29,163 nt of DNA, taken from the IMG/VR virus record IMGVR_UViG_3300027782_000281, positions 1 through 29,163 of that record. One strand, 5' to 3'. The first letter of the stretch is position 1. Each line of letters opens with the position of its first letter. Origin of the DNA: a virus. Position numbers and translations under genes: made by a program. Below, one piece after another: positions 1,772 to 28,564 of the stretch. Below the pieces are notes generated by a model that made no database searches, was not told where the DNA came from, and was given only the letters and a program-made list of their open reading frames with translations.

Positions 1772-3521
1772 TTTTTTAAATACACCACCGAAATTTTCAC
1801 CTGTTTATACAGATGGATTATTCTTTACAGTATCAGCCGATACAAACCACTTTAAATTCAGATATGTTTATGACATATATGCTGATGGAGTTTTAATATT
1901 TCAAGGTAAAGCAACACCAAATCCATTTGAATTAGGTGTTATTGATGTATCAAGGATATTAAAATCTTATGTTAGTAACATTCCAATATCAAGATGGAAT
2001 ACAACGCCAATATACACTCACCAAACATTTCCATTTTCAAGACCTAATAACCCTGAAACAATCAACTACCAAGTGTATGTTGGTTATGAGTATGCCAGTT
2101 CTGAATTAGACCAAGTAACAGGATTTACAGGTAATGATTCAACGATAGGACCACCAGAAGTAACTGATGGATTATACAAAACATTCCAATCAACAATGGG
2201 TGTTAATGCCAAGTCAAACGAACAGAACTTTGATATAGGACAATTTGTCTTATCAGGTACTCCAACGGGAACTAACCCAACAGTTGATTGTTTATACCTC
2301 ACCAATTCACCTCGTAATAGAGATTTAGACCCAAGTGAGTATTACACATTAGGATTTACAAACTATTATTTATCAGATGATGCATTATCAGAACCATATT
2401 ATGTTTTATATAACTTTTATGACGATGAAGGAGCATTCATTACTGGTGTAACTGTTGATAACATTACAACAAATGGTGGAGGTCCAAGAACAGATTGTGA
2501 TTATGTATATCAATCAACAACCATAATTAACCCAACAGGTAATACAGACTTCAACACATTATATGTTGGAGCAGGACCTATGAACCTTGAACCAATTATG
2601 CCAGCAAATGCGGCACAATATACAATTCAATTGTTCGGTAAGTTTACAGGTTCAACATCACCAATACAACCAACTCCAACTCCTACTCCAACTCCATCAG
2701 CAACACCAACTCAAAATCCTTGTGATGCCTATGGATGTGCTTCTTATTCAATAACAAATCAAAACTTTAATCCTTGTGAATTAACATATTGGGATTGTGA
2801 AAATGAAATATCAACAACAATATTAATTGCTCCTGAAAGTTCATTTTTAATTAATTGTACTTGTCCTGAAAGTTTCGCTTATGAGTGTGATTTAATAATT
2901 CAATATAGTAGTGAATGTATATCACCAAATCCTTGTATTACTTGTTATACAACAGTTGTTAATAACAATGGTAATGAGAGTTGTATATACACTTATTATG
3001 ATTGTAATACAAATCAATATGTAACTGTATCACAACCCCCTTTAACAGGAACTGAATATGCTTGTATTTGTCCAACAATACAAACATTATGTGAAGATGT
3101 TGAAGTAATACCAGGAGCTTATTGTTCAGGACCTCTCCCAACTCCAACTCCGTCACAAGGACCTAATGTATTAAATTGGTATTTTAGTCGTCAATTAGGT
3201 GTATTTGATGTTAATATAACATTACCACACTTAGAAATTATACAACAATCAAGTAGCACTACATTAGTAAACACAAATTCATTTGGTAGTGGTGTCGCAT
3301 ATTTCTACTCAGGATTTTTAGATGTTGAAGCAAGTTTTACATATAAAAATAATATTGGAAGTATAAACAATATCGCAATTGTTGCTGGAACAACATTAGG
3401 TGATGATAGTTATGGTAGATTAAATATCCCAAGTCCAAGTGATGGAACTGTATACACATTAACTTGTTCACCATACAAAGCAGCGTCTGGTAACATTTAT
3501 GTAACAATAATAACTTATTAA
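1764..3521 (+). CDS. Tail protein with two Cys-rich repeats between Pro-Thr linkers
   Basis: 585 aa. Residues 1-300 are beta-rich and start with FxxTPPKFSPVYTDGLFF and GVIDVSRILKSYV, which is the N-terminal half of a tail protein type found in Bacteroidota phages. A PTPTPTPTPSATPT linker (about 300-318) follows. Residues 320-390 and 391-454 are two related Cys-rich modules of about 65 residues, each with a YxDC motif and a C(T/I)CP motif. A second short PTPTPS linker precedes a C-terminal beta domain (about 467-585). The following gene looks like the missing C-terminal half of the same family, so the linker-Cys section may have been inserted at a split point. Virion surface decoration or receptor contact is inferred. 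Confidence 0.55.
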   Translation: MINFLNTPPKFSPVYTDGLFFTVSADTNHFKFRYVYDIYADGVLIFQGKATPNPFELGVIDVSRILKSYVSNIPISRWNTTPIYTHQTFPFSRPNNPETINYQVYVGYEYASSELDQVTGFTGNDSTIGPPEVTDGLYKTFQSTMGVNAKSNEQNFDIGQFVLSGTPTGTNPTVDCLYLTNSPRNRDLDPSEYYTLGFTNYYLSDDALSEPYYVLYNFYDDEGAFITGVTVDNITTNGGGPRTDCDYVYQSTTIINPTGNTDFNTLYVGAGPMNLEPIMPANAAQYTIQLFGKFTGSTSPIQPTPTPTPTPSATPTQNPCDAYGCASYSITNQNFNPCELTYWDCENEISTTILIAPESSFLINCTCPESFAYECDLIIQYSSECISPNPCITCYTTVVNNNGNESCIYTYYDCNTNQYVTVSQPPLTGTEYACICPTIQTLCEDVEVIPGAYCSGPLPTPTPSQGPNVLNWYFSRQLGVFDVNITLPHLEIIQQSSSTTLVNTNSFGSGVAYFYSGFLDVEASFTYKNNIGSINNIAIVAGTTLGDDSYGRLNIPSPSDGTVYTLTCSPYKAASGNIYVTIITY

Positions 3522-3524
3522 ACT

Positions 3525-4055
3525 ATGGCAATTAAACCACAACCAGTCCCAACCACCTATGTATTAGGTAATTGTTCAGGATACACACCAGTATCTGAAA
3601 TATTCACAATAAACATTGAACCTGTTTGTAATAGGTCTGGTGTTACGATGTATCAATTTATGTGGAAAAATAGATATGGTCATTATGACTATTATTTGTT
3701 TAGAGCTGGTAAAGATGAAGGATTAGATATAACAAGAGAAGTGTATAAAGAATGGAGTGTAGATTGGGGTGGAGAAAATCCAAGCAAAGAACCATATTCA
3801 AGGGGAACTATTGATGCAACTATTTCAATTGTTGAAACTCATATTGTTAATACAGGATTTTTAAACCAACCTGATTTTATGTTCTTAGAAGAATTATGGA
3901 CATCAAACGAAGTATATGAAATCCAACAAGATTCTAAATTAAGACCAATCAACATTGTAAACACAGAATTTATTCGTAAGAATAAAGGTAATAGAACAAT
4001 AACAAACTTAGAAATGACTTACGTGTATTCTAACAATATATCTTTAATGCAATAA
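3525..4055 (+). CDS. Tail protein, distal-tail-like (apparent C-terminal half of a split family)
   Basis: 176 aa starting four bases after the previous stop. Motifs: FMWKNRYGHYDYYLFRAG (an aromatic strand pair), then an alternating beta region, then LNQPDFMFLEELWTSNEVYEI and PINIVNTEF. In related Bacteroidota phage proteins that I recall, the order 'xxNRYGxYDxFxF ... xxxLEELxTSxEVY' forms the C-terminal half of one long protein whose N-terminal half resembles the upstream gene. I infer that the two genes are parts of one ancestral tail protein. Location at the distal end of the tail is likely given the tape measure two genes downstream. Confidence 0.5.
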   Translation: MAIKPQPVPTTYVLGNCSGYTPVSEIFTINIEPVCNRSGVTMYQFMWKNRYGHYDYYLFRAGKDEGLDITREVYKEWSVDWGGENPSKEPYSRGTIDATISIVETHIVNTGFLNQPDFMFLEELWTSNEVYEIQQDSKLRPINIVNTEFIRKNKGNRTITNLEMTYVYSNNISLMQ

Positions 4056-4056
4056 T

Positions 4057-6621
4057 ATGAATACAACATTACTCCTATATCTTAATGGTGAGTGGAAACT
4101 TGTAGACTTATATGAAGATTTACCAATATCTGTGGTTATTCAAGAAACTGATGTTACAGATTTTCAAGGTAGAAAATCATCATATTCAAAACAATTTTCT
4201 GTACCAGGAACAAATAATAACAATAGAGTATTTCAAGAATACTTTGAGGTTAATGGTATTGATTTTGACCCATTGGTTAAGATATCGTCAGTTGTTCAAT
4301 ATAGGGGAACAGATATATTCACAGGAACTCTTAGATTACAATCAGTTATTATAAATGATAACTTTATTGAATATCAGGTTTATATCATTGGCGAGGTTGG
4401 TGATTTTATATCAGAGATTAAAGACTTAACATTACAAGATTTAAACTATACAGACCTTCAACACGAATTAACTTATGATAATATACAATTATCTTGGCAA
4501 GCCAAAAATAATAATATAGACGGGTTATTTGGTGGTGCGATTATATATCCAATGGTAAATCAAGGATTACTTTATCCATCTTCATCATCAGCGGCAACTC
4601 CAGATTTTTCATATAGTTTTTCGGCAACAAGTAGTTTTTCATCTAACATACATCCAATTACTCCAAACTATTTTAAACCATCAATTAGGGTATATGAAGT
4701 AGTTAAAAGAATATTCGCAGAATCAAGTTATACAATTAATTCAGATTTTTTTGAAACAGATTATTTTCAATCAATTTATATAGATACATTCCAAAATGGA
4801 AAATTAGATGTTGATGTAGCATCAGCTGTTACAAACCAAAACTTATTTGTATCTTATAGACCTAACTTAAGATTACAATATGAAGGTGAAAGAACAATAA
4901 GGCTTCCATTTACAAAGAATTTACCAGGTGGCTTTGACCCATTAAATAATTTTTATGAAGGACTTGGAACATTTAGATGTCCGTATTTAGGTGGATATTC
5001 ATTTAACATTAGATTTAATTATGAATCACAAGATTTTCTACAAATTAGAGGTTCATTTAGATTAGTTGCCAAAGTTGGTTCAAGCCCAACAAATTTAACA
5101 ACGCCTGTATGGAGTAGTGGTGAATATAAAGTAGGTTGGAGATTATCAGGTGGATTACAAGATGGTTCAGTTAATGAGTTCTTTACTGTTAATATGATAC
5201 CAGGTTTATATATTGGAGTGTTCCTTGAAGAAATGAAGGAATATTTGTCGTTAGGAATTACAAGACCAAGAGGTGTTTATAATTTAACTCCATTCAATTC
5301 TGGTGGAGTTGTTGATAACTTTATTAGATGGGATTTATATGCATCACCAACTTTATCTGGAACCAAGATTGTAGATATTAAATTGGGTATATCAAATTTA
5401 AAATGTGAAGAATTTTTAAAAGCATTAATCATTATGTTTAATCTTGTTGTAGTTCAAGAACAAGATAGTAGGACATTAAAAATAATACCATATAATGAAT
5501 ATTATAATGAACCTGATAGGATTGAAAAAGACTGGACACAGAGATTAGATTTAACATCATCATATAAGATTGAACCATTATCTTTTGATTTACCAAAAGA
5601 GTTAAATTATACCTATATGAAAGGGTCTGAAGAATATTTAAATAAATTATTTGAAGACACTAATGATTTTAATTATGGTAGATTTAAATACATTTCAACA
5701 TCAAATTTATTAACATCAACTCAAACCTACGAATTACCATTTGCGGCTTTACCAACATCAGGTGTTACAAATGCCCCAAATTTTATTATACCACAAATAT
5801 ATAGAGATTTAAATAATCAACAAGCCGCATATACAGCAAAACCACATATATTCTTTTGGGTTGGAAACAGATATGCTTATACTGACGCATTAAAACAGAA
5901 AAAAGGATATTGGTATATGTCTGATGATACTGGTATTGCTCAACAACAAACTACATATCCTTGTATATCACACTTATCTTCTTTGGACATTTATAATTCA
6001 AATTATGTGTCTGATTTAAACTTTGCTTCAACATTTGATTTTTTTGGTAATACTAATATCTACCCTGTTCAAAATACCCCTTATACACTCTATAATTCTT
6101 TTTGGACAGATTATATCAACAACAACTATTCAAATGAAACCAGGAGGTTTACAGGTAGGTTCTGGCTATGGCCAATAGACATATATGAAACCAGTTTAAC
6201 AGATAAGATTTATATTAAGGATTCATTCTACCGTATTGAAAAAATAAACGAAGCAAACTTAATTGAACCTACATTAACTGAAGTATCTTTAATTAAAGAA
6301 AGGGGTGGATATTATAATATAGAACCACCATCACCATATTACTTTTTTGAACCAAACGCACCATATCCATCATTTTCAGGATTAAGTGTATTCACAAGTT
6401 TTATTAGTTTAGATTCATTCTTAGTGTGTAATGGAACAGCACCAGTTACGAGTATTTTTAAACAATCGGCAACACCATTCCAAGATGGTTCAATACTATA
6501 TACATATAATGGAACAACTTATGTCCCTGTTCCTCAAGGCACATATGTCAGACAGACGACATTGCCTAATACTTATGTAGTAATAAACAATATAGGACAA
6601 ATAATACAAGCAACTTGTTAA
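4057..6621 (+). CDS. Large tail-tip / baseplate hub-like protein
   Basis: 854 aa. The N-terminus (LYLNGEWKLVDLYEDLPISV, then IQETDVTDFQGRKSSYSKQF and PGTNNNNRVFQEYFEVNG) is a signature I associate with large tail proteins of Bacteroidota siphophages. The rest is long, beta-rich and rich in Tyr, Phe and Asn, without catalytic motifs that I recognise. Size and place directly before the tape measure suit a tail hub or baseplate component that contacts the host. The gene starts two bases after the upstream stop and ends one base before the tape measure start. No signal peptide or membrane segment is seen. Confidence 0.55.
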   Translation: MNTTLLLYLNGEWKLVDLYEDLPISVVIQETDVTDFQGRKSSYSKQFSVPGTNNNNRVFQEYFEVNGIDFDPLVKISSVVQYRGTDIFTGTLRLQSVIINDNFIEYQVYIIGEVGDFISEIKDLTLQDLNYTDLQHELTYDNIQLSWQAKNNNIDGLFGGAIIYPMVNQGLLYPSSSSAATPDFSYSFSATSSFSSNIHPITPNYFKPSIRVYEVVKRIFAESSYTINSDFFETDYFQSIYIDTFQNGKLDVDVASAVTNQNLFVSYRPNLRLQYEGERTIRLPFTKNLPGGFDPLNNFYEGLGTFRCPYLGGYSFNIRFNYESQDFLQIRGSFRLVAKVGSSPTNLTTPVWSSGEYKVGWRLSGGLQDGSVNEFFTVNMIPGLYIGVFLEEMKEYLSLGITRPRGVYNLTPFNSGGVVDNFIRWDLYASPTLSGTKIVDIKLGISNLKCEEFLKALIIMFNLVVVQEQDSRTLKIIPYNEYYNEPDRIEKDWTQRLDLTSSYKIEPLSFDLPKELNYTYMKGSEEYLNKLFEDTNDFNYGRFKYISTSNLLTSTQTYELPFAALPTSGVTNAPNFIIPQIYRDLNNQQAAYTAKPHIFFWVGNRYAYTDALKQKKGYWYMSDDTGIAQQQTTYPCISHLSSLDIYNSNYVSDLNFASTFDFFGNTNIYPVQNTPYTLYNSFWTDYINNNYSNETRRFTGRFWLWPIDIYETSLTDKIYIKDSFYRIEKINEANLIEPTLTEVSLIKERGGYYNIEPPSPYYFFEPNAPYPSFSGLSVFTSFISLDSFLVCNGTAPVTSIFKQSATPFQDGSILYTYNGTTYVPVPQGTYVRQTTLPNTYVVINNIGQIIQATC

Positions 6622-6622
6622 C

Positions 6623-9600
6623 ATGGCTGAAAAAGTAATTGGACTCCGTATTCAACTTAATGGTTTTAATGGTGTAGTAACCAGTATAAAACAATTAGAA
6701 GAAGAATTAAGGAAAGCGAAAGAAGACCTTACTCAATTAGAAATTGGGGGTAATAATTTTAAAACACTACAAGGTGAAATATCAAGAACTGAAACCAAAT
6801 TACTTGGGTTAAGAAAAGCGTCAGAAGGTATTGGTCTTGAAAAACAATTAGAAGGTTACGGTAAATTAGCAGGTGGTATTACCTCATCTTTTGCTGCTGC
6901 TCAATCAGCTGTAGCATTATTTGGTAATGAATCAACTGTTGTTGCCGAGGCTGCCGCTCAAGCTCAAAACTTATTAACATTAGCGTTAGCCGCAAGAGGT
7001 ATTCAAGAGGTTGCCGTTGGTGCTGAGATTGTCGCAAGGACGGTTGCGGAAAAAGCAGCAACTGCCGCAACATTAACAACAAATACCGCTCTTAAGGTTC
7101 TATATACAACGATTGCTGCCAATCCTATTGGAGCATTGGTTACCGCAATTGGTTTATTAGTTGGTGCTGTAATAGCATTTAATTCACAAACAAAAGAAAC
7201 TATCAAGGTTGAAAAAGAACTTGGAAAGGTTACTTCAGATGAAGCATCAAAACTACAAGTTTATGGTCGTATTCTTACAGATACAAATTCAACAAATAGA
7301 CAAAGGAAAGAAGTAATTGAAGAATTAAAGAAAACTTATCCAGGGTTCAACGCTTTAATTGGTGCTGAAAATAGATTAAATGAAGATGGTATTAAATGGA
7401 TTACTGCCAAAAGTAAGGCATTAGTTTTAGAAGCCCAAACCAAACTTATTGTTCAAAAGATTGCTGAGAACAACAACAAGATTATTGCTGAAGAAAATAA
7501 AACAGTTGAAGAAAGTGTTACAGGATGGCAAAAATTTACTAACATTTTATTAGGAGCTTCAGCAGGTTATGGTATACTTGGAACACAGGTTTTAAACGCT
7601 AAAGATGCTGCTAAAAATACTCAAAAAGCAACCGCTGATTTAAATAAAGAAAACGAACAATGGTATAATGCGTTAAAAAAGATATTTGAATCTACAAGTT
7701 TGGTTGATGATACATTAGACCCAATTAATACTAAGTTAAAAACTCAGGCTCAAACAGAAGCTGACTTAGCAAAAAATACAAATGAGGCAGCAAAAGCAAC
7801 AGACGCTCAAGTAGCATCACAAAAAAGATTAGAAGGTCAATTAAGTCTTACAGAACAAGCTTATCAAACCACATTAGAAAGGATTAAAGAACTTGTTAAT
7901 ATATCATCAATTAAAGTTGATGCTCCTGAAATTATTAAACAATTAGAAGATATTGTTAGTGCTCGTAAGGCATTAGTTCCTGATACTATTGTTGACGTAT
8001 TTGATAAATTGGGGATAACTATTAAAACTTTTAATGGTCAAATTCTTGGTTTATATAATACAGCATCAAAAGGAAATAAAGAATTAAAAACATTAGGTAG
8101 TCAATTAGGTGATACTGTTGGAGTATTATCAGATGAGTTTGGGACATTCTATGATAAGGTTAGAGAAGATTTATCTATCAAGTCATTATCACAAAGTGTT
8201 ATTGATTTTGGAGCGACAGTTGATACGGTATTAAACCAAGCTGCGGAAAAGTTTAAATCAGGTGAAATAACCAAAGAAGCATTTGATGCGTTTAGAGGAA
8301 TAACAGACCAGTATAGAAAATTTAATGAACTTATTCAATCAACACCAGGTGTTGAAAAAATATTCAATCAAAAATCACTTCAAGAATTCCTTGAGGTTCA
8401 AAGACAAATTGGTGTAGCAACTGGTGTAATCAAATACGAATATGATGATGTTACAGGTATTATTAGTGAGGTAAATAAAGAAGGTATTGATTATGCTGCG
8501 ACTGTTAAATTACAGAATGACCAAATTAAACAATATACCGAAGGTTTAGTTCAATACTATACATCACAATACGATGAGACCACTAAAGTATTTAATCAGT
8601 CAGTTGATTTAACCAATCTAACCAAAGAACAAAGAAAAGAGTTAAAAGAAGCCGCTGCTGAAGGTGGAACAAAAATACAAGAAGTAATTCTACAAATATC
8701 ACAAACTCAAGCTCAAGGTTTAAAAACATTAGTTCAGACTATTGTTGAAGAAGAAACAAATATTAGAGATTTTCTATTCAAGGCTCAAGAATTGGCTGCT
8801 CAAGCCAGAGCGTTAGATGCTGTATCAATTAAAGAAGGTTTATTAAACAACCTTAAGTTAGTTTATGACGTAACCCAACAAGAAAATAAGATTGTAATTG
8901 ATACTAAAAAAACTCAAGCACAACAACTTATTGCCCTTGAAAACGATTTAAAAACAAAAGGTATTGATATCAGTAAATTAACTGAGGAAGAAAAATTAAA
9001 AATATTAAAGTATTATCTTGATGAACAGGTTAAAGCAACAAGTGAAGCTGAAACCAAGAAACAAGAACAATTTAAAAAGACATTAGATAACCTAAATCTT
9101 GCATTACAGACGATATCTAAGGCATTAAGTGATGTTGCCTCACTTGTGGCTCAATCGTTTCAAATTGAACTTGATACGTTGGAATACAGATATCAAACTG
9201 CGATGGGGAATATCGTTGGTGATACTGAAGAAGCAAATCAAAAAAGAATTGAGACTGAAAAGGCTTATCAAGCAGAAAAAGCCCAAATAGAAAGGAAGGC
9301 TCAGTTAGCTTCCCTTAAATTTACATTAGCATCTGCCTTAGCATCAGGAGCTCAAGCAGTTGTTGCAGCACTTGCGTTAGCACCACCAGCAAGTTTTATT
9401 ATCGCAGGTATTAATGCGGGTATAACAGCAGTACAAGTAGGTTTAATCCAAACACAGATAAATGACCTTCAATCAAGACCATTAAGACGAGGTGGATTAT
9501 TACAAGGTGGTGGATTAGTATCAGGACCATCACACGAACAGGGTGGAGTTTATGCTGGTGGAGGTTATACTTTAGAAGGTAATGAAGCAGTTATCAACAG

Positions 9601-9811
9601 ACAATCAACATTACAATACTCAGGTTTATTAAGTCAAATAAACCAATCAGGTGGAGGAAGACCTATTGTGGTTCAATCAGCAATGGATTCAAGATTGGTT
9701 GAAGCACTGGCAAAACAAAAATCAGAACCAATTAGAGCGTATGTGGTAGAACAAGACATCACAAGAGCTCAAACTATAAACAGAAGATTAGAACAGTTAG
9801 CATCGTTCTAA
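6623..9811 (+). CDS. Tape measure protein
   Basis: 1062 aa, the longest gene in the genome. The N-terminal 150 residues are coiled-coil and Ala-rich. A hydrophobic segment at about 162-187 contains ANPIGALVTAIGLLVGAVIA, a hallmark of tape measures. A long helical Gln/Lys/Glu region follows, then a second hydrophobic Ala-rich stretch (about 893-940). The C-terminus carries GGLLQGGGLVSGPSHEQGGV and GYTLEGNEAVINRQST, a motif pair typical of Bacteroidota phage tape measures. The protein sets tail length and occupies the tube. At the usual ratio of about 0.15 nm per residue it predicts a tail near 160 nm. No lytic domain was seen in it. Confidence 0.92.
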   Translation: MAEKVIGLRIQLNGFNGVVTSIKQLEEELRKAKEDLTQLEIGGNNFKTLQGEISRTETKLLGLRKASEGIGLEKQLEGYGKLAGGITSSFAAAQSAVALFGNESTVVAEAAAQAQNLLTLALAARGIQEVAVGAEIVARTVAEKAATAATLTTNTALKVLYTTIAANPIGALVTAIGLLVGAVIAFNSQTKETIKVEKELGKVTSDEASKLQVYGRILTDTNSTNRQRKEVIEELKKTYPGFNALIGAENRLNEDGIKWITAKSKALVLEAQTKLIVQKIAENNNKIIAEENKTVEESVTGWQKFTNILLGASAGYGILGTQVLNAKDAAKNTQKATADLNKENEQWYNALKKIFESTSLVDDTLDPINTKLKTQAQTEADLAKNTNEAAKATDAQVASQKRLEGQLSLTEQAYQTTLERIKELVNISSIKVDAPEIIKQLEDIVSARKALVPDTIVDVFDKLGITIKTFNGQILGLYNTASKGNKELKTLGSQLGDTVGVLSDEFGTFYDKVREDLSIKSLSQSVIDFGATVDTVLNQAAEKFKSGEITKEAFDAFRGITDQYRKFNELIQSTPGVEKIFNQKSLQEFLEVQRQIGVATGVIKYEYDDVTGIISEVNKEGIDYAATVKLQNDQIKQYTEGLVQYYTSQYDETTKVFNQSVDLTNLTKEQRKELKEAAAEGGTKIQEVILQISQTQAQGLKTLVQTIVEEETNIRDFLFKAQELAAQARALDAVSIKEGLLNNLKLVYDVTQQENKIVIDTKKTQAQQLIALENDLKTKGIDISKLTEEEKLKILKYYLDEQVKATSEAETKKQEQFKKTLDNLNLALQTISKALSDVASLVAQSFQIELDTLEYRYQTAMGNIVGDTEEANQKRIETEKAYQAEKAQIERKAQLASLKFTLASALASGAQAVVAALALAPPASFIIAGINAGITAVQVGLIQTQINDLQSRPLRRGGLLQGGGLVSGPSHEQGGVYAGGGYTLEGNEAVINRQSTLQYSGLLSQINQSGGGRPIVVQSAMDSRLVEALAKQKSEPIRAYVVEQDITRAQTINRRLEQLASF

Positions 9812-24112: not shown

Positions 24113-24370
24113 ATGGAACTCAAAGACCAAATACAGAAATACTTTAAATTAAGCGATAAGGAAAAAAGTGATGTCCTTGTTCAAATAATCCGTATATACA
24201 CCAGTCAAAATCAAATTAAGTATAATGGATTAATGAAGATAAGAGACCTTATTGATATTGATATTGAGATTTATAAAGAAGAAGATGAGTTTGAATTGGT
24301 TCAAGCCCTAACAGATATAAAAGAAGCAATAGCTGAAATAGAACAAGAAATGAGAAATGGACTTGAATGA
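24113..24370 (+). CDS. Small acidic helical protein
   Basis: 85 aa, almost entirely helical and acidic ([41 protein letters not shown]). Not recognised. It overlaps the following HNH gene by 14 bases. It begins 18 bases after the terminator T-run, with the start codon in ATTAA ATG. Confidence 0.55.
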
Positions 24371-24692
24371 TTTATATATAACAAGAGATGGTAGAGTATT
24401 CTTAGATGGAGTTGAAAAAAAACAACATACTCATTCAAAGGGATATAAAAGAATATCATTCAACAATACTGATTATTTTGTTCATAGATTAGTTGCGATG
24501 ATGTATATTCCAAATCCTGAAAATAAGAAACAAATAAATCATAAAGATGGAAATAAAACAAATAATCACTACTCCAATTTAGAATGGGTTACGAACTACG
24601 AAAATCATTTACATGCAGTAGAATTAGGATTATGGGTTTATAACCATCCATACAAACATAAAAAAACATATAAGAACAATGGGCGGCTGTAA
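24357..24692 (+). CDS. HNH endonuclease
   Basis: 111 aa. Conserved HNH motif: [20 protein letters not shown] with H43, then [10 protein letters not shown] (N61 H62 and D64 in the catalytic core) and NLEWVT. Residues 1-40 form a small N-terminal part seen in phage HNH proteins. HNH genes beside terminase often help DNA packaging (as HK97 gp74) or act as free-standing homing nucleases. Position just upstream of the terminase genes supports packaging help. It overlaps both neighbours by 14 bases. Confidence 0.8.
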
Positions 24693-24951
24693 CTGTAAAG
24701 GAAAAGGAACAAAACAAATGATTAACAATCTTAATTCACCTGACCATATTCAATATGCAAAGGATGTCTATAACAGGGTTGTTTTACATAATACAACACA
24801 AGAGTTCAGTGATGTAGATAAAGTTGAAATTATAGGGGCGTATGCAACTCTATATCCCGCTTCAAGTCAGACACCAAGCATTGAAGAAGCAATAAACAAA
24901 ATCAAAGAGGGAATTGAACTTTTTGATGTAAAATATACAAGAAGAAAATAA
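24679..24951 (+). CDS. Small Cys-Gly-start protein near terminase, function unknown
   Basis: 90 aa, begins [20 protein letters not shown]. The N-terminal 'GCxCKGKG' motif with a helical body is seen in small proteins beside packaging genes in Bacteroidota phages. The two Cys near the N-terminus could bind metal. It overlaps the HNH gene by 14 bases and the small terminase start by one base. No known function. Confidence 0.6.
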
Positions 24952-25364
24952 TGGAAGAAAATAAAAGAAAACCAGGTAGACCAAAGGCTGATTATAAATT
25001 ACCTGATGGTTGGAGACAAATCATAATTGATAGTGGAAGACAGGGTAGACATATAACAGATTTTTTAATAATCTTAGGTGTTACATTTGACCAACATTAC
25101 ACAATGATGGAAAGAAATAAGGAGTATTCCTCAGCCGTTCAGGACTATCAAAAATATTGTGAACAATATTGGTATAATTTGGCTTATGCTTCTATGTCAT
25201 CAAATGGTGGGGCACAATTCAATTCTAAACTATGGAGTTTGATTGTCCGTAATAAGTTCCCCAAACATTGGAGTGAATCAACCAGAGTTGATGTAACAAC
25301 TCAAGGTGATAAAATAACTGATGATAAGAACATTACAATAGAGATTATAAAACCAAAAGATTAA
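24951..25364 (+). CDS. Terminase small subunit
   Basis: 137 aa. The basic N-terminal part RKPGRPK resembles an AT-hook and leads into a helix-turn-helix, HITDFLIILGVTFDQHYTMM. A helical middle contains QYWYNLAYASMSSNGGAQFN and the fold ends NKFPKHWSESTRVDVTTQGD, all typical of TerS in Bacteroidota phages. It binds DNA at the packaging start and hands it to TerL. The methyltransferase gene starts three bases after its stop. Confidence 0.8.
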   Translation: MEENKRKPGRPKADYKLPDGWRQIIIDSGRQGRHITDFLIILGVTFDQHYTMMERNKEYSSAVQDYQKYCEQYWYNLAYASMSSNGGAQFNSKLWSLIVRNKFPKHWSESTRVDVTTQGDKITDDKNITIEIIKPKD

Positions 25365-25367
25365 ATT

Positions 25368-26645
25368 ATGGAACAACATTTATTAAATGGAGATAGTGCG
25401 GAGGTACTAAAAACACTCAAAGATAATAGTGTAGATTTACTAGCCACAGACCCGCCATACGGAATTGAGTTTATGGGTAAAAGTTGGGATAAAGTTTTAC
25501 CACCAACAAACATTTGGCAAGAGTGTTATAGGGTATTAAAACCTGGTTCATTCATCGCAGTTATGTCCTCACCAAGAAGTGATGTGTTGTATAGGATGAT
25601 TAAGGACTTGGAAGATGCGGGGTTTGATATGAGTTTCAGTCCAATTATGTGGACTTATCATACAGGGTTTCCAAAAGCGTCAGATACAAGTAAGATGATT
25701 GATAAAAGAAAAGGTAGAATAACCCACTCAACTTTACAACTTAAACAAATCATTATTGACTACTTTAATAAAAGAGATATAACAAAAAAGTTATTTGATG
25801 ACTTATGTGAGTTTAAGGCATCATCATACATGAGAACTGAAAGTAGGGAAGATGATGGTTGGGGTGAAGCAGTACCTTCTAATGAAAAGTGGGATAAAAT
25901 AAAAGAGGTTTTACATATTGATACTAATGAATATGATGAATTATTTTATGAGGCTCAAAGAGAAAGTATTGGTAAAAGTTCAAGTGGAATAGGAAAGGCA
26001 TTTACAAAAGGAGGATGGAATAGTGAAACTATGGAGTTTGATATTACAGAACCATCAACAGATTTGGCCAAAAAGTATGAAGGTAGTAAATTAGGTTTCC
26101 AACCAAAACCTGCCGTGGAACATATTATTATTGGTATGAAACCACACGGGTCAAAAAGTTATATTGATAATGTATTAAACTTTGAGGCATTACCTGATAA
26201 TATCAAAATGACTTATCCATTTATTCAAGTTCCAAAACCAGCAAAGAAGGAAAAGGATTTGGGTATGATGGGTGAAGGTAAGAAAGAAACTATGTTTGCT
26301 AATGAAAATGGTGAAAAACAACTTGGTAGAGCAACACTACCAGGAAACGAACATCAACCAAAAGAGGTTCAACCTAAAAAGAATATACACCCCACCACAA
26401 AACCTGTTAAACTAATGTCCTATATCATCACCTTATTCACAAGGGAAGGGGATTGGGTATTAGACCCATTCTTGGGTAGTGGAACAACTGGTTTAGCATC
26501 AAAACTTATCAACAGACATTTTGTCGGTATAGAAAGGGAAAAAGAATACTTTGATATATGTGAAGAAAGATTATCTGTATCAAGGGAAGAATTGGTAAAG
26601 TTCTTTAAGATGGAAAAAGACACACAGACAAAGTTGGACTTATGA
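25368..26645 (+). CDS. DNA adenine/cytosine-N4 methyltransferase (beta-type order) lacking its internal variable module
   Basis: 425 aa. Motif IV is DPPYG (D28-G32), motif I is DPFLGSGTTG (366-375), and HPTTKP is at 341-346; the order IV before I is the beta class. The substrate-specificity region normally lies between them. Related phage methyltransferases carry, after the SYIDNVL-type stretch, a segment 'GGxNIDxCRI ... GRFPANLL ... SRYFDLDKWF' before VPKxxKKEK. Here residues 264-270 (SYIDNVL) are joined by a short stretch to FIQVPKPAKKEKDLG (285-299), and that segment is absent. It is encoded instead by the next two genes. Probably protects phage DNA. Confidence 0.8.
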   Translation: MEQHLLNGDSAEVLKTLKDNSVDLLATDPPYGIEFMGKSWDKVLPPTNIWQECYRVLKPGSFIAVMSSPRSDVLYRMIKDLEDAGFDMSFSPIMWTYHTGFPKASDTSKMIDKRKGRITHSTLQLKQIIIDYFNKRDITKKLFDDLCEFKASSYMRTESREDDGWGEAVPSNEKWDKIKEVLHIDTNEYDELFYEAQRESIGKSSSGIGKAFTKGGWNSETMEFDITEPSTDLAKKYEGSKLGFQPKPAVEHIIIGMKPHGSKSYIDNVLNFEALPDNIKMTYPFIQVPKPAKKEKDLGMMGEGKKETMFANENGEKQLGRATLPGNEHQPKEVQPKKNIHPTTKPVKLMSYIITLFTREGDWVLDPFLGSGTTGLASKLINRHFVGIEREKEYFDICEERLSVSREELVKFFKMEKDTQTKLDL

Positions 26646-27037
26646 AATACTCTAAAGGAATAATGTGGTTAGATGATTGTAGAATACCATTTGTTGATGA
26701 GATTGAAAATAATATTGTTTTTGATAGAAGTGGTAAGGGTGGATACAGAAAAGAATTAGTTGGTTGTGAAATAAAAGAAGATTATAATTGGAAAAAACAA
26801 CAAGGTAGATTTACACCAAACCTACTGGTATGTGATGATATGTTAAATGATGGTAATATTGGTGGTGGGGGTAAACATAGTGGTGTTATAAAAAGAAAAA
26901 GAAAGGGGTATAAATTAAATCCAAATAGTGATAATTTACACTCAACAAGTCCAGACAACTATGGAGATAAAGGAACAAATAGTAGATACTATGACTTGGA
27001 TAAATGGTTTGATAAAGTAATAGATGAGATACAGTAA
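26642..27037 (+). CDS. Stand-alone methyltransferase variable module A
   Basis: 131 aa. Begins MKYSKGIMWLDDCRIPFV; block 2 is GRFTPNLLVCDDMLNDG (55-71) and block 3 starts DKGTNSRYYDLDKWFD (109-124), ending KVIDEIQ. These are the segments that related methyltransferases keep inside the protein between the SYIDNVL and VPKPxKKEK parts. Two intervening stretches (19-54 and 72-108) are unrelated to those of gene B. The gene overlaps the methyltransferase stop by four bases (ATGA), so it is probably co-translated. I infer a separately encoded specificity part. Confidence 0.6.
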   Translation: MKYSKGIMWLDDCRIPFVDEIENNIVFDRSGKGGYRKELVGCEIKEDYNWKKQQGRFTPNLLVCDDMLNDGNIGGGGKHSGVIKRKRKGYKLNPNSDNLHSTSPDNYGDKGTNSRYYDLDKWFDKVIDEIQ

Positions 27038-27407
27038 AGGTATAATGTGGTTAGATGATTGTAGGATTCCATTTGTTGGAACTGATACCACTAATGCTGG
27101 TAAAAGAACTTGTAATATCTTTGAAACAGAATATCAAAGTGGGGGAAATGGTAGTCCTGATTATGAAACAAACCCAAAAGGTAGATTCACACCAAACCTA
27201 CTGGTATGTGATGATATGTTAAATGATGGTAGTGTTAGTAAATCAACAAAAGTAAAATCACCACTTTTAGATATTACTGGTGGTTCATATAACAACGCAA
27301 AAGGTAATACAAATAAAATTACAGAAAGAGGTGTTAATGATAAAGGAACAAATAGTAGATACTACGACCTTGATAAATGGTTTGATAAAGTTATTGATAG
27401 TTTATGA
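27024..27407 (+). CDS. Stand-alone methyltransferase variable module B
   Basis: 127 aa, tandem paralogue of the gene before it (14-base overlap). Conserved blocks: residues 1-18 (17 of 18 identical, K2R), GRFTPNLLVCDDMLNDG (53-69) and DKGTNSRYYDLDKWFD (106-121). The variable stretches 19-52 and 70-105 share no visible similarity with module A. Its stop overlaps the TerL start (ATGA). It may give the methyltransferase a second target or loop set. Loss-of-function remnants are the alternative, but both frames are intact with tight overlaps. Confidence 0.6.
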   Translation: MRYSKGIMWLDDCRIPFVGTDTTNAGKRTCNIFETEYQSGGNGSPDYETNPKGRFTPNLLVCDDMLNDGSVSKSTKVKSPLLDITGGSYNNAKGNTNKITERGVNDKGTNSRYYDLDKWFDKVIDSL

Positions 27408-28564
27408 GGTTTCAAGTAACACAGGTATGGGAAGATATCCACAACGCAGTAGAACAAGATAAGAGATATATCTTTTTGAGGGGTTCATCTCGTTCATCAA
27501 AAACCATATCAGCACTTCAAATGATAGTCGTAGAAGCTCTTAAGAACCCCAAGACGACCATAACTATTGCTCGTGAGACCCAAGTATCATTAAGACATAC
27601 AATCCTCCCAGACTTCAAGTTTGTGATGGAGGAGATTGGACTATGGGATACAGGAGTATTTCAAAAACAGGAGTTTGTTTATACATTTTCAAATGGTTCA
27701 TTAATCAGGTTTATTGGATTGGATGATTCAACTGGTAAGTTAAAGGGATTCAAGTCAGACATCATTCTAATTGATGAGGTCAATACCATTGAAAAGAACT
27801 CATTCATTCAAATGGATATTCGTTGTTCAAGATATATTATGGCTCTATACAACCCTGAAATACCAATTGACTGGTGGGGACTTGAGTATGAAGCAAAAGA
27901 CAATGGATGTATGTTACACTCAACTTGGAGAATGAACTCGTTCCTTGATGAAAGAACAATACAAGCAATTCAAGAATTGGTTGAAATAGACCCTGATATG
28001 GCAAAGATATATGGTGAGGGATTAATTGTTGAACCAAGAGAAAAAATCTTTACACAACCAGAAACTTATTCACAATTACCAAATCACATTAGGGAAAAAT
28101 ATTACGCAATTGACTTTGGTTTTAGTAATGATGAATGTGCTGTAATTGAAGTAAATGTGGATGGTAGGAATTTATATGTCAGACAAATATTATATCAATT
28201 AGGATTAACCAATGAAGACTTGGCATTCAGGTTAAAAGATTTAGGAATAGACAGGAATGTGAATATCGTAGCTGATTCAGCAGAACCCAAGTCAATTGAA
28301 GAATTAAAACGCCAAAGGTTAAACATCAGACCAGTATCCAAGACAAGTATTTTATATGGGATACAAAAGATGAAACAATTTAAAATATATCTACACGAAG
28401 AAAGTGTGGATTTAATAAGTGAATTTTCAAATTATAAGTTTAAGAAAGACAGGACAGGAGCCATAACAAATACGACTACAGGAAAAGACCACGGCATTGA
28501 TGCCCTGAAATATGCTGTAGTTCAATTTTTAGACAAACCAAAATCAAAAATAACAATAGTATGA
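27404..28564 (+). CDS. Terminase large subunit
   Basis: 386 aa. Walker A at 27-34 (GSSRSSKT), Walker B ILIDEV (D124, E125), then a nuclease domain with D237 (YYAIDFGF), D291 (VADSAEP) and D362/D366 (KDHGIDALKY), the RNase H-like acidic set. Motor ATPase and nuclease that fills the prohead with DNA. It is short for the family but complete. It overlaps both neighbours by four bases (ATGA), indicating a tight operon. Confidence 0.93.
   Translation: MRFQVTQVWEDIHNAVEQDKRYIFLRGSSRSSKTISALQMIVVEALKNPKTTITIARETQVSLRHTILPDFKFVMEEIGLWDTGVFQKQEFVYTFSNGSLIRFIGLDDSTGKLKGFKSDIILIDEVNTIEKNSFIQMDIRCSRYIMALYNPEIPIDWWGLEYEAKDNGCMLHSTWRMNSFLDERTIQAIQELVEIDPDMAKIYGEGLIVEPREKIFTQPETYSQLPNHIREKYYAIDFGFSNDECAVIEVNVDGRNLYVRQILYQLGLTNEDLAFRLKDLGIDRNVNIVADSAEPKSIEELKRQRLNIRPVSKTSILYGIQKMKQFKIYLHEESVDLISEFSNYKFKKDRTGAITNTTTGKDHGIDALKYAVVQFLDKPKSKITIV

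Follow-up and report, generated by a model that had tools for sequence, protein, structure and literature searches.

In beta-class DNA methyltransferases, the target-recognition region sits between motif VIII and motif X. Behrens reportedly described in 1987 phage multispecific methyltransferases in which several recognition elements share one catalytic core. Those of Bacillus subtilis phages (SPbeta and phi3T type) are orphan cytosine-C5 enzymes with interchangeable recognition elements on one core, and their recognition domains lie in one chain, not in separate genes. The Type III Mod proteins (M.EcoP15I, Mbo45V) are beta-class enzymes with an internal variable recognition domain that stays in the chain and works with Res. 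For beta-class enzymes, PMC6158711 describes a relocation of the recognition part to the interior of the chain.

A specificity subunit separate from the catalytic chain is reported, in the review PMC3874165, for gamma-class methyltransferases, namely Type I, Type 1 1/2 and multimeric Type IIG/B. In Type I systems, HsdS is a separate specificity protein for the catalytic methyltransferase HsdM, with two variable regions between conserved ones; the halves of HsdS reassort to give new specificities, and certain sequences can change from one of the two positions to the other (PMC3874165, PMC3077401), as domain movement between the recognition domains (PMC3077401). M.AhdI and other Type 1 1/2 (Type IIH) methyltransferases have a small separate S subunit outside Type I, with a gamma-class catalytic subunit and one recognition domain per S subunit, and belong to a restriction-modification system; a description of a tandem array of alternative S genes was not found in the consulted passages of the two sources (PMC4081073, PMC3874165).

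The window, i.e., the whole stretch analysed here, is IMG/VR virus record IMGVR_UViG_3300027782_000281 with a record length of 29,163 bp. Five of its genes follow each other head to tail: a 137-aa gene, a methyltransferase, module 1, module 2 and the terminase large subunit. The features of this region are the following:

24357-24692, HNH_3 endonuclease gene, likely of the homing type, upstream of the methyltransferase-module operon
24951-25364, same direction as the methyltransferase and directly before it, 137-aa gene with a weak resemblance to a terminase small subunit
25368-26645, + strand, beta-class DNA methyltransferase, N6-adenine-type, 425 aa (PF01555, phrog_67, alignment with 26 split methyltransferases and with single-chain relatives)
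25449-25460, + strand, catalytic motif IV, DPPY, residues 28-31, N-terminal as in the beta-class order (translation and alignment)
25710-26069, + strand, cassette A, methyltransferase residues 115-234, variable insert behind SKMIDKR
26177/26178, + strand, excision point between methyltransferase residues L270 and N271 (split-methyltransferase alignment and single-chain relatives)
26256-26387, + strand, cassette B, methyltransferase residues 297-340, variable insert ahead of HPTTKP
26463-26489, + strand, SAM-binding motif I, DPFLGSGTT, residues 366-374, C-terminal as in the beta-class order (translation and alignment)
26642-27037, + strand, module gene 1 for a proposed specificity subunit of 131 aa, which is homologous to the segment inside the chain of single-chain relatives
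26648-26689, + strand, module 1 conserved block 1 (YSKGIMWLDDCRIP)
26690-26803, + strand, module 1 cassette V1, residues 17-54, best relative 42% identical
26804-26851, + strand, module 1 conserved block 2 (GRFTPNLLVCDDMLND)
26852-26980, + strand, module 1 cassette V2, residues 71-113, 98% identical to V2 of the L041 module
26981-27010, + strand, module 1 conserved block 3 (SRYYDLDKWF)
27024-27407, + strand, module gene 2 for the second proposed specificity subunit of 127 aa, overlapping module 1 by 14 nt
27030-27071, + strand, module 2 conserved block 1
27072-27179, + strand, module 2 cassette V1, 92% identical to V1 of the L009 module
27180-27227, + strand, module 2 conserved block 2, 47 of 48 nt the same as in module 1
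27228-27353, + strand, module 2 cassette V2
27354-27383, + strand, module 2 conserved block 3
27404-28564, terminase large subunit, directly after module 2 with a 4-nt overlap

The start of module 1 overlaps the end of the methyltransferase gene by 4 nt (ATGA), and the coordinates and the two overlaps of 4 and 14 nt that the first-pass annotation of this DNA gave are exact. When a cognate restriction endonuclease was searched for, the neighbours of the operon were the HNH_3 gene, the weakly terminase-small-subunit-like gene and the terminase large subunit, in a record that is possibly incomplete.

The methyltransferase is a member of PF01555 (E 4.8e-33, above the gathering score) and also matches phrog_67 (E 1.8e-59). 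Motif IV precedes motif I, with the recognition region between motifs VIII and X, which is the beta-class layout; adenine N6 methylation is proposed. The sequence SYIDNVL is directly joined to NFEALPDNIKMTYPFIQVPKPAKKEK; the protein lacks the stretch of about 130 aa that is found between the two halves of single-chain relatives and is otherwise complete. The place of the split is precise, behind SYIDNVL and ahead of NFEALPDNIKMTYPFIQVPK, and the excised segment falls between PAVEHIIIGMKP and HPTTKP. The structural comparison was made with the core of the single-chain relative L237, not with the window protein; this core, confidently predicted by AlphaFold2, matches the beta-class folds of CcrM bound to DNA (6pbd, Z 24.7), M.BceJIV (Z 24.0) and M.RsrI (Z 21.9). 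The pLDDT of the segment is about 35-60 over most of its length in the single chains of L237 and L313, i.e., it is low even in L313, whose loops are minimal, and therefore no structural claim is made on the shape of the segment or on its closeness to DNA.

A profile from 39 module proteins retrieved six single-chain relatives that combine methyltransferase and module (L234-L239, from bacterial and archaeal assemblies), and a profile built from five of these retrieved many further ones from viral contigs. As these proteins were found with module or methyltransferase profiles, their number is selected and their frequency is uninformative, but their internal order was not selected. An HMM made from stand-alone modules only was placed within 84 single-chain proteins, and the order N-half, module, C-half was found in 84 of 84. 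The match of the N-half profile ends at positions 190-192 of 192, and the median gaps among 75 distinct single-chain proteins are 3 aa between the N-half and the module and 1 aa between the module and the C-half. This tiling of N-half, segment and C-half is far from chance. The motifs of the single-chain proteins at the place of excision run in the order ...KPLSEKNYIEQAMSTGKGITWLDDCRIP-V1-GRFPANLLVSDDTLNDG-V2-SRYFDLDAW...PKASKSEKNKG. The single-chain beta-class methyltransferases of the phrog_67 kind (L237, L305 and gp61 of mycobacteriophage TwoPeat) are homologous over the full length, including the segment, and are direct relatives of the window enzyme; they carry the segment internally, without separate module genes, whereas the window carries it in separate genes. 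What the first-pass annotation had proposed, namely a beta-class enzyme without its internal segment and two downstream genes that each encode this segment, is borne out by the layout and the tiling, and in the alignment with full-length relatives the segment is present and homologous, rather than absent or unrelated.

The split form is conserved among environmental viral contigs. Adjacent modules accompany 51 of 52 distinct complete split methyltransferases with room around them (one module in 25 cases, two in 22, three in 3 and four in 1); every split case comes from a metagenomic contig of a single viral collection, in which only identical proteins were removed as duplicates, and therefore the counts are not counts of independent events. 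L313 was considered as a split methyltransferase without a module and was rejected, being a single-chain enzyme with nearly empty V1 and V2. The first module mostly overlaps the methyltransferase gene by 4, 23 or 1 nt, modules lie on both sides of the methyltransferase in seven cases, and the terminase large subunit follows immediately downstream, as in the window, in 22 of 52 cases with more than 600 bp of 3' sequence. Among 343 stand-alone module matches, a number in which some contigs count more than once because they were fetched repeatedly or in overlapping pieces, 38 had no half of a methyltransferase within 3.5 kb on the piece retrieved, and several of these lie at contig ends. The 56 split methyltransferases group together in a single clade (support 0.998); among single-chain enzymes, L305 is closest to it, with a weak support of 0.65.

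Several further arrangements were observed in these contigs. In L013 (4397-4885) and L026 (4879-5340), the split methyltransferase is separated from its module by a gene similar to those of HNH homing endonucleases, and such genes might promote the movement or gene conversion of cassettes. A second, different methyltransferase gene with the motif SPPY (TSPPYADIVNYGKNISIKK) is located just upstream of the split methyltransferase in many contigs, e.g., L001:2078-3130, L004:2554-3768, L006:625-1428 and L032:2057-3121. The 125.7-kb viral contig L038 contains, at 3221-9718, six nearby methyltransferase ORFs with the N-half only (one cut by the end of the locus) and one with the C-half only, perhaps a different fragmentation and another way of multiplying enzyme parts. 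In L176 (2155-2556 and 3023-3664), the methyltransferase is found as an N-half and a C-half ORF followed by three modules; this two-piece form may be due to a frameshift, an insertion or a further split.

Neither module 1 nor module 2 matched a family of Pfam or NCBIfam, HsdS/Methylase_S included, and the sole library match of module 1 was an unannotated PHROG at chance level (E 0.24). No module was found in named phages at E 0.01; weak matches to Acinetobacter phages (E up to 10) were rejected as an unrelated hypothetical protein, and the comparison with PDB sequences gave chance matches only. The layout of a module is block 1, V1, block 2, V2 and block 3, with two cassettes per module, swapped INDEPENDENTLY. 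The three conserved blocks had been recognised correctly in the first-pass annotation, which missed the exchangeable stretches between them. Its idea of interchangeable modules holds in so far as the parts form an evolutionary mosaic, but the unit of exchange is each cassette, V1 or V2, and not the whole module.

The mean identity in the first 97 modules was 87% for the blocks, 24% for V1 and 29% for V2. At a cut-off of 60% identity, 124 modules were divided into 69 V1 families and 59 V2 families that occur in 117 V1xV2 combinations, so that reassortment is nearly unrestricted, and the number of combinations stays at 108-117 for cut-offs of 50-80%. When two modules share V1 at 90% identity or more, V2 is below 40% identical in 43 of 49 pairs; conversely, V1 is below 40% identical in 122 of 131 pairs that share V2 at this level. 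The DNA identity of shared cassettes reaches 100%, and the distances of V1 and V2 are nearly uncorrelated (Mantel r 0.035). Both modules of the window follow this pattern: the V1 cassettes of module 1 and the L041 module, which share V2, are 23% identical, and the V2 cassettes of module 2 and the L009 module, which share V1, are 21% identical. The explanation that V1 and V2 merely evolve fast was rejected, because near-identical V1 would then be accompanied by near-identical V2, and the opposite was seen. The mosaicism is best explained by recombination in the conserved blocks. A few short matches between V1 and V2 (YGGGKGIP type, 11-24 aa) point to an exchange of positions, some of the single-chain cases being possibly errors of sequence division, and a movement between positions as in HsdS is for now only a lead.

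The frame of the modules evolves together with the enzyme. Among the 56 split methyltransferases, the identity of the methyltransferase core is correlated with that of the module blocks (Mantel r 0.767, 0 of 2000 permutations), and its correlation with the cassettes is close to zero (r 0.100 for V1 and 0.075 for V2), which indicates that cassettes are replaced on a stable frame. The co-divergence of core and blocks is expected from linkage alone, so it is consistent with contact between the two proteins and is no proof of it. In the blocks, the protein sequence is kept while synonymous codons vary, and the blocks are homogenised within operons (third-position identity of 0.80 within and 0.64 between operons). 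Modules of the same operon shared V1 in 1 of 40 pairs and V2 in 0 of 40 (permuted means 0.64 and 1.27), so an avoidance of shared cassettes was not significant, and selection for several specificities per phage is thus not demonstrated by this comparison.

The same cassettes are also used in single-chain enzymes. A match to a module V2 at E < 1e-4 was found for 13 of 68 single-chain V2 cassettes, several of which are variants of one cassette, so that at least three clear independent cases remain; shuffled cassettes, used as a control, gave 0 or 1 match. The clear pairs, compared over 31-32 aa, are L282/L016 (87% identical), L305/L053 (78%) and L236/L219 (71%). That a cassette is found at the same position in both suggests that it does the same job in the single-chain and the separate forms. 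Together with the exact tiling, the modules beside every complete split methyltransferase and the single origin of the split clade, this recurrence of V2 in cis gives good support to an excision in which the segment was relocated and not lost, as had been proposed at first. V1 and V2 are almost absent in L313 (1924-3078), L300 (196-1371) and L304 (844-2004), natural single-chain enzymes that represent the bare frame and are the minimal cases, and the modules of L091, L108 and L166 have no V2; therefore, neither loop is indispensable.

The methyltransferase chain has variable inserts of its own. Cassette A occurs in length classes of about 5, 45 and 115 aa, while cassette B has a length of about 8 aa or of 33-50 aa in almost every relative and of 148 aa in one. 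Cassette A of the window is 100% identical to the copy in L001, whose cassette B is only 30% identical (the cores are 92% identical), and cassette B of the window is common to L012 and L092; thus, A and B swap independently of each other. Cassette A of L006 resembles the helix-turn-helix family PF12844 (E 5e-5, below the curated cut-off), and no domain match was obtained for cassette A of the window in the family library search. A mosaic design with cassettes of the A/B type is probably common to the whole phrog_67 kind of phage enzymes. Given these swapping cassettes in the chain itself, the modules are probably not the sole source of specificity, which may be located partly or mainly in A and B.

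We consider it likely that the methyltransferase of the window is an orphan phage adenine methyltransferase of the beta class and receives its sequence-reading segment in trans, from a separate, duplicated specificity subunit. The anatomy, linkage, single origin, mosaicism and cassette reuse can be read from the sequences themselves; from the position of the segment between motifs VIII and X, the HsdS-like mosaicism and the linkage, we infer that it reads DNA and acts in trans while bound to the methyltransferase. Through the frame, one module at a time would dock into the gap between motifs VIII and X of the methyltransferase, which is the site of the segment in single-chain relatives. V1 and V2 would touch the DNA and determine part of the target site, and loops A and B of the methyltransferase would contribute to recognition as well. 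With two modules, one catalytic chain would then yield two enzymes that differ in specificity, and retargeting could be quick, through recombination in the conserved blocks. The benefit would probably be that phage DNA is shielded from several host restriction systems; protection by phage orphan methyltransferases is possible (PMC4190342).

The cassettes in the chain make it conceivable, although unlikely, that the modules bind the methyltransferase as a structural or dimerisation part, that A and B read the DNA and that V1 and V2 vary for other reasons, e.g., to evade host inhibitors. A and B do vary and swap, V1 and V2 are nearly absent in some natural enzymes and the segment has no confident predicted structure, all of which would fit such a role. 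However, two independently swapped cassettes in a conserved frame resemble recognition domains of the HsdS type, and these cassettes lie at the target-recognition position of beta-class enzymes and are reused in both single-chain and separate forms, which argues for the recognition of DNA by the modules.

It is very improbable that the modules have a task independent of the methyltransferase, such as that of regulators, DNA-binding decoys or anti-restriction proteins, next to an enzyme that works alone with low specificity. They are small proteins with no family match, and active beta-class enzymes without this segment exist; against this stand the retention of modules by every complete split methyltransferase in a clade that arose once, the coincidence of the deleted segment and the module within a few residues, and the co-divergence of frame and methyltransferase. 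The tandem copies with near-identical blocks might also be left over from duplication and recombination, as remnants or as silent donors that have no function as proteins, which is very hard to believe for a methyltransferase without an internal site for a donated segment, for blocks whose protein sequence is conserved while synonymous sites vary, and for frames that stay open in 1-4 tandem, tightly coupled copies in dozens of contigs.

Compared with the described systems, the enzyme with specificity subunits supplied in trans would, on balance, be the first beta-class methyltransferase with its recognition region as a separate, duplicated subunit, a combinatorial enzyme with four slots, two of them in the chain (A and B) and two in the subunits (V1 and V2), by which a phage holds several specificities at once and trades cassettes with other phages; we put this forward with somewhat less assurance than the reading itself. 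No paper on a split beta-class methyltransferase with separate module genes was found in searches of an open-access library, and one may exist elsewhere. If the reading is true, the M + S design would have been independently invented in phages by a beta-class enzyme that released its recognition part, on a scaffold unrelated to that of Type I HsdS and convergent with it. The re-aiming of one enzyme at new DNA sites would follow from cassette shuffling, and this offers a testable idea of how phages keep up with changing host restriction systems. The more than 120 distinct modules would be a natural library of exchangeable elements of about 30-50 residues from which a cassette-to-site code could be worked out, with a possible use in programmable methyltransferases.

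The likeness to the known systems is thus one of design. Like the orphan multispecific enzymes of the SPbeta and phi3T type, the window enzyme would combine interchangeable recognition elements with one core, placed here in separate genes and, unlike theirs, on a beta-class enzyme and not on a C5-cytosine methyltransferase. The L237 core matches the Type III Mod proteins with Z of about 20, but the putative recognition segment of the window lies in separate genes. Two variable regions between conserved ones, with independent reassortment, are shared by the modules and HsdS, as a likeness and not as membership, since no sequence similarity between them was found (no Pfam match for the modules). 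The modules are about 130 aa long, with cassettes of about 30-50 aa, whereas HsdS is much larger and contains two full recognition domains; their partner belongs to the beta class, in which motif I comes after motif IV, and not to the gamma class as HsdM does. Moreover, unlike in Type I, no HsdR is present, and usually one or two module copies lie beside the methyltransferase gene. The small S subunit of M.AhdI is similar to the modules in being separate and outside Type I, and differs from them in its gamma-class partner and its place in a restriction-modification system. The window system appears to work like HsdS and the S subunit of M.AhdI and is a member of neither group.
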